Shown here piece by piece: positions 30,401-33,638 of a DNA stretch of 64,000 nucleotides. Position 1 is the stretch's first letter. Each line of letters opens with the position of its first letter. Location of the stretch: contig SXUI01000079.1 in the NCBI GenBank assembly GCA_005790605.1, positions 1-64,000 of the forward strand, in the 5' to 3' direction. The position numbers and the translations under genes are program-made. The notes beneath the pieces were generated by a model, which was not told the origin of the DNA, did not search any database, and saw nothing but the letters and a program-made list of their open reading frames with translations. This stretch comes from Planctomycetia bacterium (lineage in GTDB: Bacteria; Planctomycetota; Phycisphaerae; Phycisphaerales; SM1A02).

Positions 30401-32983
30401 ATGCAGAACGAACCTTCGCAACTGCCTTCCACAAACACCCCTCACTCCACAGAGGAAGTGGCGCGATTGCGCATGCGGATCAGCGAACTTGAAGCGCTTC
30501 TGTTCGTCCATGGAATTGCGCTCCCGAAAGAGCGGACGCCGGTCACGGTCGTGCCGCCGCCTCCGCCTCCGATCGTTCCACCACCGACGGCAGGTGGTGG
30601 CGCCATCGGTGATGCAACGGGTGCGGCGCCGTCTCCAACACCGAGCGAAGTCGAGCGTTTTGTCGGCGTGAAGCTCGCCGCGCTCGCAGGCGCGCTCGCG
30701 GTGCTCGGAGCGATTGGCTACTTCGTGAAGTATGCGATTGATACTGGCCTCTTTGGTCGACTCGGACCAGAGGCAAAGTTTGGCGCGACACTGGCGTTGG
30801 CCGCCGCCTTTCTCATCGCCGCAGAACGCGTGCGCGTGCGCTATAGCGTTGAAGCGTCGAGAGGCCTGTACGGCGCCGGCGTGGTGGCGCTCTTTGCCGC
30901 CGTGTTTGCGGGAGCATTTGTGCTTCAGCTCTTTGGCGTTGGTGCGGCGACCATACTTGTCGCTGGCGCAGGCCTTGTTGGAGTCGCGTGCGCAGTACGA
31001 AGTGCATCAGCGACCGTCGGCATTCTTGCCTTGCTCGGCGCACTCGCGCTTCCGATCTTGAACGGCTTTGATGAAGGCGCGGTCCTCAGCGGCATCGAAC
31101 TCACTGTCGTCCTGCTGATCGCGGCAGGCCTGACCGCTTTAGGCCCGCCGAGCTTCGCGCGCGTGCGAGATTTCGCGTTGGTCGGCGGGGTTCCGATGTC
31201 GATCGTGTGGGCGGTCGAATCGGGTGTCTCGCCGCCGAATCGTGCACTCTTCATCTGCGTCTGGTGGGGCATCTTTGCGGGAAGCTGTGTGTTCGAAGCG
31301 ATGCGGGGGAGGACTGGAAGAGACAACGCGATCACACTTGCGGCCGTGAGTGCATCGGCGTTACTCGGCTGCATCGCGGCGACTGGAGGTGGATCGAGCC
31401 TGTCGGATCCGCTCGCGTACCTGCCACTGCTCATCGGTGGAGGACTCGCCATTGTTGGCGTCCAACTCCGCGCCATGGGTGAGCCAGCTGATCCAGACGA
31501 AGCGCGTGATGAGCCAGTCGACGGATTGCGAGCCGATGTGGCATCGGCGTGTTCCGCGCTGAGCGTGGTCGCCATCGGTTGTGCTCCACTCGCGCTCGTC
31601 ACTGCGTTAGGCGTCTTCCTCAATGGGGACGGACTCATCATCGGCGCGGCAGGCGCCGCTGTCGTGCTGGCGTTCGCGACAGCGCGGTTGAAGACGATCC
31701 CACTCATCCCAGGTTGCTTGATTGCGATGATGATTGGCTGGGGCGCGAGCTTCTGGCAGTTACTGACGAGCGCGACCACTCGTCCATCGGTCTGGCCAGG
31801 GTCGGAGTTTCCAATCGCGCCGCACATGGCGGAAATGGTCGCGTTCCGATTCTCCGCAGAGTTCCTTGCTCCAACGGCAGTGATGGTTCTGTTCTTTCTT
31901 CCGCTGTTCTTGGACAAATGGCCCCGCGCACTTGCGCGAACCATGGGCGTCTTTGGAGCCCTGCTCAGCGTCGTGGTCGTCCTCTGCTTCTTAGGACCAT
32001 TTCCAGCGTCGTTCGCGTTTTCAGCACTCGCGGTGGCGATCGCGATGCTGCGTCAGAAAACCGCGCGACTCGCGGACGGGGCGTGGTGCTTACTCGCGCT
32101 CGGCTATTGCATCGTCGCGCTGCTCTGCCTGTGGGTTGCAACCGTGGTTGTGGCGCAATCGACAAGCGCTCGAGATCAATATTTGTGGTTGCAGGCGGCG
32201 TTCGTTGTCATCGCGCACATCGCACCGCTCTGGGTGCGATCGTCACTTTGGGAGAAAGCGCGTGGCTTCTTTGACGCCGCGTTGGTTCTTGAACTCAGCG
32301 CACTTTGCACTTGCCTGTTCTTGATTCGGATGCATGAGAGCGGTGACTCTCCCGATGCACTGTTCGCTCGGGTGGCTCTGATCTTGTCCATCTCTAGCGT
32401 TGTCATCTCGCTGCTTGCGTATGGGCGGCGCTCGATCGCGCTCGGAAGGGCGGCGGTCTTCGCCGTCCTGTTTCCAGTGGCGATCGTCGCGACAGTTGCG
32501 ATGATCGTTCTCTTCGGACGAGAGACGACACACATTGGAAGTGACAGTCAGTGGCTCTATGCCGCGATAGCGCCATCGATTGCGCTTCTTGTCGCGAGGA
32601 AATCCCTGCGAAAACTAGGAGCGACGCCGCTGACCTCAGCAGGGACGAAGAACGCGCTGCAAGCAGTCGTCCTCGCGACAGTCGTGTCAGGATGCGTGCT
32701 GCTTGCCGGTGAGTGGTTTGAAGGCTATGGGCGTGCCACGGCACTCATCAGTTTGCTGAGTGCGTGTGCCGTTACGTGCCTCGTTTGGGGATTCAAGGGG
32801 GGCGTGGCGGGAGCGCGCTGGGTTGGACTTGGACTTCTCGCGCTCCTCTCGCTCCGTCTCACGCTCATTGATTTGGCGCAGACCTCAGCCCTCGTTCGAG
32901 TCGTTCTCCTGTTCGCTGCAGGTCTGATTCTGGTTGGCACGAGCATCGCGTATGCGTTGCTTCGCCCTCGACGCGAATCTTGA
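30401..32983 (+). CDS. DUF2339 multi-pass membrane protein
   Basis: An 860-residue membrane protein with a soluble N-terminus (a short helix, then the proline run VVPPPPPPIVPPP) and about 20 hydrophobic segments from residue 85 on. The pattern, including FVGVKLAALAGALAVLGAIGYFVKYA, fits DUF2339, a family of unknown function in envelope-rich bacteria. GAGAGG lies eight bases before the ATG. The last codons (GAA TCT TGA) lie inside the first copy of a 56-base tandem repeat. It follows kynA by 39 bases and may share its transcript. Confidence 0.85.
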   Translation: MQNEPSQLPSTNTPHSTEEVARLRMRISELEALLFVHGIALPKERTPVTVVPPPPPPIVPPPTAGGGAIGDATGAAPSPTPSEVERFVGVKLAALAGALAVLGAIGYFVKYAIDTGLFGRLGPEAKFGATLALAAAFLIAAERVRVRYSVEASRGLYGAGVVALFAAVFAGAFVLQLFGVGAATILVAGAGLVGVACAVRSASATVGILALLGALALPILNGFDEGAVLSGIELTVVLLIAAGLTALGPPSFARVRDFALVGGVPMSIVWAVESGVSPPNRALFICVWWGIFAGSCVFEAMRGRTGRDNAITLAAVSASALLGCIAATGGGSSLSDPLAYLPLLIGGGLAIVGVQLRAMGEPADPDEARDEPVDGLRADVASACSALSVVAIGCAPLALVTALGVFLNGDGLIIGAAGAAVVLAFATARLKTIPLIPGCLIAMMIGWGASFWQLLTSATTRPSVWPGSEFPIAPHMAEMVAFRFSAEFLAPTAVMVLFFLPLFLDKWPRALARTMGVFGALLSVVVVLCFLGPFPASFAFSALAVAIAMLRQKTARLADGAWCLLALGYCIVALLCLWVATVVVAQSTSARDQYLWLQAAFVVIAHIAPLWVRSSLWEKARGFFDAALVLELSALCTCLFLIRMHESGDSPDALFARVALILSISSVVISLLAYGRRSIALGRAAVFAVLFPVAIVATVAMIVLFGRETTHIGSDSQWLYAAIAPSIALLVARKSLRKLGATPLTSAGTKNALQAVVLATVVSGCVLLAGEWFEGYGRATALISLLSACAVTCLVWGFKGGVAGARWVGLGLLALLSLRLTLIDLAQTSALVRVVLLFAAGLILVGTSIAYALLRPRRES

Positions 32984-33086
32984 GCGCTCGCGACTTGGAA
33001 TCTGCGCCAAGCCGCAGATTCCTCGCTCGTGAATCTTGAGCGCTCGCGACTTGGAATCTGCGCCAAGCCGCAGATTCCTCGCTCGC
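32975..33086 (+). repeat. Tandem 56-base repeat, two copies
   Basis: Copies at 32975-33030 and 33031-33086 differ only in the last base. Each contains GAGCGCTC followed by a perfect 10-bp hairpin (GGAATCTGCG, 6-base loop, CGCAGATTCC). The first copy includes the end of the DUF2339 gene and its stop codon, so the duplication either began in or ran into the gene end. Confidence 0.95.
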
Positions 33087-33093
33087 TTTGGTG

Positions 33094-33625
33094 TGCGCCT
33101 GGCCGAGTGAATCGGCACAGGCGCAAGTCCAGCGTTGTTTGACGCACTGAGCTCGATCTCCGACCGTCGCGATTCATTCGCGCGGTCGGAGTCCAGAGCG
33201 AGCGCAGCGTTTTTGCCGCTGGCCTTGCAGCGGCAAAAACGCTGCACGAGCGCTCAACTTCACGCGACTGCGCCGGGGCGAGTGAATTGCCCTCTGCGCA
33301 AACTCTGCGTCTTTGTTCGCTCGGGATCGACGCGCTGAGCGCGATCTCCGGCGGTGCCGATTCACTCGGCCCGCCGGAGTCCAAAGCGAGTGCAACGATT
33401 TCGCCCGCTGCGGGCGAGAATCTTGCACGAGCGCTCAAGGGACGCCTGCACGAGCGCTCAACTTCACGCGACTGCGCCGAGGGCGAGTGAATCGCCCTCG
33501 GCGCAATTCCAATGTCTTCGGCGGTACTGAGCCCGCCCTCCGACCGTCGCGATTCATTCGCGCGGTCGGAGTCCAAAGCGAGTGCAGCGTTTTTGCCGCT
33601 GGCCTTGCAGCGGCAAGAAACCTGC
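33094..33625. repeat. Array of three compound hairpin repeats
   Basis: Three rounds of the same order: forward hairpin F, reverse hairpin R, central hairpin C. F: 33094-33125, 33269-33300, 33473-33505. R: 33158-33191, 33346-33379, 33538-33571. C: 33204-33245, 33391-33427, 33584-33625. F has the loop motif GTGAA and R its reverse complement TTCAY, so F and R are the same structure on opposite strands. R copies 1 and 3 are identical; copy 2 differs in both stem arms with pairing kept. Each C is followed by TGCACGAGCGCTCAA. The array fills the gap between two convergent genes. No coding role is seen. Confidence 0.9.
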
Positions 33626-33638
33626 ACGAGCGCTCAAC

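Follow-up and report, generated by a model that had tools for sequence, protein, structure and literature searches.

An array of compound hairpins that occupies the entire gap between two convergent genes in a 64-kb stretch of a Phycisphaerae genome (the window, 64,000 nt) is probably a cluster of a REP/BIME/REPIN-like family, that is, of short, palindromic and non-autonomous mobile elements that are inserted where genes have their 3′ ends. The family is dispersed through the genome, its stems covary strictly, its loop and boxes are fixed, its elements are present or absent at orthologous sites in congeners, and it sits at gene 3′ ends. A mobile palindromic family was one of several options named in an earlier note on this DNA, and dispersal, covariation and presence/absence all support it.

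The array spans 32979-33637 (Table 1) and therefore starts upstream of 33094, where it had been placed before; a tandem pair of 56-nt F-side hairpin copies belongs to it as well. All six F and R hairpins previously described were recovered by a covariance model of hairpin H2 built from 40 copies, with E values of 5e-14 to 1e-12 for four of them (33082-33126 on the + strand; 33158-33202, 33346-33390 and 33538-33582 on the - strand) and of 8e-5 and 2e-6 for the second and third F copies (33261-33301 and 33465-33506, + strand); elsewhere in the 64-kb window no match fell below E 0.02 (best, 0.02). The motif CGARTGAATYG and the end box CGAGCGCTCAA each occur six times in the window, always in the array (0.42 and 0.17 expected, respectively), and folding was strong both for 33036-33257 as RNA (z -11.8) and for the whole array as DNA (z -19.6). 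The repeat order is not F-R-C, as the earlier note had it: the unit is a half-element consisting of end box, hairpin H1, K box and hairpin H2 (E-H1-K-H2), and half-units are paired head to head. The reader's F is H2 of the F half, R is H2 of the R half, and C, which had been taken for a separate third element, is H1 of the R half; among the F copies of the array, only the first has its own H1 and K box.

Table 1 Features of the hairpin array in window coordinates.
Feature	Position	Strand	Remark
Left outer end box TTGAGCGCTCG	32980..32990	+	provides the stop codon (TGA, 32981-32983) for the upstream membrane-protein gene (ORF 30401-32983)
Tandem pair of 56-nt copies (98% identity), each an end box and F-type variable H1	32972..33083	+	stems 32997-33022, 33053-33078
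K box CTCGCTTTGGT, fixed 5′ neighbour of H2	33082..33092	+	
H2-F1: outer stem, 5-bp inner stem, GTGAA loop, 3′-side bulged A	33093..33126	+	E 2.9e-13
H2-R1 and K box, ATGAA loop (strand of feature)	33158..33202	-	E 9.3e-13
R-type variable H1 (= C1), 18-bp stem	33203..33246	-	
End box (TTGAGCGCTCG on - strand)	33247..33257	-	
H2-F2, degenerate, without K box	33261..33301	+	E 8.1e-5
H2-R2 and K box, CCGGCGG subfamily	33346..33390	-	E 4.8e-14
H1 of GATTCTCGCCCGC subfamily (= C2)	33391..33427	-	
Two end boxes, 23 nt apart	33428-33438, 33451-33461	-	
H2-F3, perfect 14-bp stem, no bulge	33465..33506	+	E 1.9e-6
H2-R3 and K box	33538..33582	-	E 2.7e-13
R-type H1 (= C3)	33583..33626	-	
Right outer end box	33627..33637	-	1 nt short of the stop of the convergent ferredoxin gene (ORF 34124-33639, - strand)

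Alignment of about 100 loop matches from the whole genome gave one half-unit order: end box TTGAGCGCTCG, variable hairpin H1, box CTCGCTTTGG, hairpin H2 and a spacer. F- and R-type half-units often stand head to head, the element then being bounded by TTGAGCGCTCG and CGAGCGCTCAA, and solitary half-units are also present. H2 has an outer stem of ~9 bp, a 5-bp inner stem ending in CGA/TCG and a loop of GTGAA or ATGAA; the bulged base reported earlier exists, but in most copies (73 of 86) it is a conserved A and lies on the 3′ side of the GTGAA strand, not on either side. The fixed parts of the unit are the loop CGA-RTGAA-TCG, the bulged A and the 5′ box CTCGCTTTGG. H1 falls into several classes with variable stems, and in the R-type class the base is kept (GGTTTCTTGC...GCAAAAAC) while the top varies in paired fashion.

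The paired differences between R1/R3 and R2, on both arms, are as first described, and compensatory change in the stems is borne out by 10 of 14 H2 pairs that changed on both sides. Standard pairs filled 93.8% of cells in the H2 structure, compared with 73.6% after shuffling and 27-42% when the structure was slid, and the covariation score of 0.436 fell to 0.117 with shuffling and to 0.104 or less with sliding. In H2, the loop and the three pairs nearest to it are nearly invariant, a constancy that within the genome is partly by construction because the motif by which copies were selected includes them; the CTCGCTTTGG box and the end box lie outside that motif, and their conservation is therefore independent. 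Copies seen via the loop motif in the congener G005 have quite different stems (TCAGGCGT, TCAACCGT) with the same architecture and the bulged A kept, and in a second genus, again via the loop motif, stems differ once more and the bulge is displaced or absent, with loop and boxes retained. Judged from these sequences, the H2 stem appears to be selected only for pairing.

At E ≤ 0.01, the covariance model found 118 GTGAA-loop H2 hairpins in the 3.03-Mb genome and 13, 28 and 55 in three congeners. The motif GCGARTGAATYG had 84 matches in the genome versus 1 for its reversed control, and the end box TTGAGCGCTCGYG had 97 copies versus 7 reversed. One further contig of the host genome (G000 C25, 3879-4209) carries three end boxes at intervals of exactly 159 nt and two H2 matches with equal spacing, a regular tandem that is likely to be a recent amplification. 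Many contigs end in or near repeats (G004:C66, G004:C156, G005:C63, G005:C18 and G000:C11, C46 and C74); true copy numbers are therefore probably higher, and neighbouring gene order is uncertain. This is a caution for genome work, as assembly contigs of these genomes often break at the repeats.

The possibility that the array is a local tandem duplication of one hairpin unit could draw on its regular spacing (188/192 nt), on the 93% identity of R1 and R3, and on the left 56-nt pair (98% identity), which probably arose by recent duplication, but we consider it almost certainly wrong because the subunits are no closer to one another than to copies elsewhere, and in part less close. R2 is 96% identical to a copy on contig C18 compared with 73-75% to its sister units R1 and R3, F1 is 95% identical to a copy on C74, and R3 is 95.5% identical to copies on C38 and C23; the family is, moreover, genome-wide. 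Only the leftmost 56-nt pair looks like a recent tandem duplication within the array. The earlier note would have settled for local duplication if the unit were absent elsewhere and stem changes unpaired in related strains; units were instead found genome-wide and stem changes in relatives are paired, in keeping with the structured family that it had proposed.

Among 181 genomes of the taxonomic family, covariance-model matches that passed stricter filters came from four genomes of the host genus and six of one other genus, and from none besides. Scanning for box plus loop across 84,980 named species returned records of freshwater planctomycetes (Lake Baikal, Lake Zurich, Erken, ponds). The same scan also matched records labelled Limnohabitans sp. 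MAG13 (for example, JASGCF010000059.1), which carry planctomycete repeats, match a genome of the second genus and are probably a misnamed bin, and it gave one box plus loop match in an Enterorhabdus bin (CANPHS010000030.1, 1745-1777), probably by chance. Rfam had no match at the gathering score, with only weak, unrelated models far below the cut-off at E ≤ 10, and the passages on repeats and intergenic regions in a study of freshwater planctomycete genomes that included a congener (PMC6461901) do not mention the repeats. On sequence grounds, the hairpin repeats appear to be a new sequence family, detected in two genera of freshwater Phycisphaerae.

Elements are tied to gene 3′ ends. With genes called by codon usage, so that small errors are possible, 44 element clusters had genes on both sides, 25 of them convergent, 19 co-directional and none divergent, compared with 20 convergent, 66 co-directional and 23 divergent among element-free neighbours in the background of the 64-kb window plus about 45 other stretches (Fisher P = 8e-6 for convergent and 3e-4 for divergent). 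Some copies come after a tRNA or after a distinct terminator-like hairpin. By eye, single half-units seemed biased towards the sense strand, but over all co-directional copies the H2 strand was not significantly biased (18 vs 12, P = 0.36). In 12 of the 31 gene ends that abut an end box, the stop codon lies inside the element, as TGA within TTGAGCG. Where orthologues were found for such genes, the native C-terminus appears to have been replaced: relatives end in RHEWR* and the gene here in RHDWRDP*, and relatives in ATYK* where the gene here ends in ATYKPQV* and that of G004 in ATYKRES*. New tails that recur (GVP*, GIP*, RIP* and RES*) are encoded by the element edge. An RsfS-like gene, read as such from its protein, on G000 contig C1 (stretch 1706-2084) ends in a repeat (...RRVP*), and its counterparts in two congeners have a longer C-terminal extension that is missing from the G000 copy. 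The TTGA of the end box is reminiscent of TTGAT, the target of ISDra2. Insertion after a TTGA target was considered and is kept as a lead, as the replaced C-termini are equally well explained by insertion near a stop codon plus selection.

Presence and absence were read between species, not strains, from orthologues of ~21 gene ends at ~15 element sites that were found in at least one of three congeners (G003, G004 and G005), and each of the ~15 sites compared has an element-free orthologous junction in at least one congener. At the site of the array, G003 has a 33-nt gap, G005 has no element, and the contig of G004 ends inside an element; site C23:19059 corresponds to an empty junction of about 45 nt in G005 and G003, and site C52:47900 is empty in all three. 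At this level of comparison the pattern appears to show repeated gain (or loss) of elements at gene ends, and gain is the favoured direction because congeners keep ordinary C-termini. No target duplication or transposition event was observed in the between-species comparison, in which the intergenic DNA at the empty congener sites is too diverged to fix the junctions. After one orthologous gene end, G003:C18 carries a different short direct repeat (about CGTGCGGCCATCGCAACTAGT), running into masked bases.

Set against known systems, the family behaves as a REP in the broad sense: its members are dispersed extragenic stem-loops with a shared motif, they form inverted pairs and mosaic clusters, and they sit at 3′ ends and donate stop codons. 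The contrast with REPs drawn in the earlier note was weak, as inverted pairs, mosaic clusters, stem subfamilies, siting and stop donation are all published REP behaviour (PMC3733652, PMC8266576). Most GTAG and CGTC REPs are no more than 20 bp away from the 3′ ends of both convergent neighbours, and they have been described as donating stop codons, forming head-to-head dimers and falling into stem subfamilies whose alternative residues remain complementary (PMC3733652); REPINs show compensatory changes (PMC3116915), and TnpAREP of E. coli REPs reads the GTAG, bulge and loop of folded single-stranded DNA (PMC8266576). GTAG REPs, BIMEs and REPINs with their RAYT/TnpAREP thus resemble the array family in short covarying palindromes, inverted pairs, mosaic clusters, many copies, 3′-end and convergent siting, stop donation and patchiness, but the array family has neither GTAG tag nor RAYT and has a constant loop, a 5′ box and a second variable hairpin. 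Neither GTAG nor GYAG/GTRG was seen at the hairpin foot, the 5′ neighbour being CTCGCTTTGGA in most copies; CGTC was not seen directly at the stem, and lies 10-17 nt beyond H2 in many copies. CGTC REPs of Rickettsia, Bradyrhizobium and others share an 8-9 bp stem, a 4-5 nt loop, head-to-head dimers and the lack of a dedicated transposase (PMC3733652), but the array family has no CGTC at the stem and differs in its loop, boxes, host phylum and two-hairpin half-unit. The hairpin family works like a REP, yet is neither a GTAG REP nor a CGTC REP, and it is genuinely unlike described REPs in its second variable hairpin per half-unit, in a fixed loop that replaces the GTAG/CGTC tag, and in its occurrence in a genome without RAYT. 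The ends of IS200/IS605 elements (ISDra2, IS608) are likewise single-strand hairpins with a loop and an unpaired stem base, read by Y1 in IS200/IS605 (PMC8266576), but the array family has no transposase gene, a guide sequence was not shown, and its units form head-to-head pairs. MITEs are similar in their inverted outer ends (TTGAGCGCTCG...CGAGCGCTCAA), non-autonomy and position near genes, whereas the array half-units also occur singly and conserve structure and not end sequence only, and no target duplication was seen at junctions too diverged to be fixed.

The search for a mobiliser covered several classes. RAYT/Y1 transposase (PF01797) is absent from G000, G004 and G005; in the second genus, Y1 genes occur in members both with and without the repeats, and no such repeats lie beside its Y1/RAYT genes. 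Y2/IS91-type transposase is absent from G000, and pieces of an IS91-type Y2 transposase were noticed in the congener G005 only (C82, C60). No integron integrase scored above cut-off in eight genomes, and sub-threshold scores occurred in all control genomes as well. By sequence reading, no transposase was recognised among the genes between close copies, where an autonomous copy was sought; we take these to be housekeeping genes (for thymidylate kinase, guanylate kinase, an ABC transporter, a peptidase, an oxidase and the like). The mobiliser is either lost, unassembled or of another class.

Of the readings in which the hairpins are not mobile DNA, a host-selected 3′-UTR RNA element, capping the mRNAs of convergent or tandem genes against 3′ exonucleases or tuning termination, and propagated through selection and gene conversion, deserves the most attention. 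It fits the zero copies between divergent genes, the units adjoining stop codons, the strict covariation, and the full head-to-head elements, which present both convergent genes with the same E-H1-K-H2 order. We nevertheless consider it unlikely because the H2 strand in co-directional contexts is not significantly sense, orthologous genes in relatives lack the element, it was detected in only two genera, and several native C-termini are replaced, with the RsfS-like gene lacking the C-terminal extension of its congeners. That the array is instead a bidirectional intrinsic terminator, as the earlier note also allowed, would suit strong GC-rich hairpins between convergent genes and is nonetheless highly improbable, because the T-runs are on the 5′ side of the stems, and the single terminator-like match is no more than in shuffles (1 vs 1.4). 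A GC stem followed by a U-tract was not found in the array on either strand, and the copies that come after a terminator-like hairpin or a tRNA argue against this role as well.

That the repeats are bound by a protein which structures the chromosome or bends DNA (gyrase- or IHF-like), and are kept for that role, would account for dispersed, clustered copies and for the short perfect palindrome GAGCGCTC that every end box contains, and E. coli REPs bind both gyrase and IHF. We regard it as improbable because duplex binding needs neither free, strictly paired stem letters nor a fixed loop, and because the distribution tracks gene 3′ ends and is patchy among relatives. An integron-like attC array, or another site-specific recombination array, is alike in general style, as attC sites are folded single-strand sites with an extrahelical base, but its chance of being correct is negligible: no IntI exceeded the cut-off in the eight genomes, no gene cassettes lie between the hairpins, and the copies are dispersed.

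Within the preferred reading of a REP-like mobile family, extreme covariation around a fixed loop leads us to predict a specific hairpin-binding protein. We propose that such a protein recognises the half-unit in its folded single-stranded form; it would read the loop (RTGAA), the CGA/TCG pairs of the inner stem and, within this genus, also the bulged A, leaving stem letters free as long as they pair. Copies would be pasted in, probably from single-stranded DNA, and would persist where they are least harmful, at stop codons and between convergent genes; selection could account for 3′-end siting without any insertion preference. Once transcribed, the hairpins would give the flanking mRNAs structured 3′ ends, with possible effects on RNA decay or on ribosomes that reach the stop codon; such effects are reported for E. 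coli REPs, which stall ribosomes when within 15 nt of a stop codon (as reported in PMC12306157). The fuller picture of a RAYT-free palindromic family that is spread by a factor reading the constant RTGAA loop and bulged A, bears a second, free-stem hairpin, and is pasted at stop codons, thereby rewriting C-termini, is put forward tentatively and may well need revision.

Four congeneric genomes with differing copy numbers and empty sites, together with an exact covariance model, make a gene travelling with the repeats now testable. This bears on how REP families that lack a transposase spread, a point raised for CGTC REPs (PMC3733652), and the family adds clear cases of stop-codon capture, in which repeats appear to replace the last codons of housekeeping genes.
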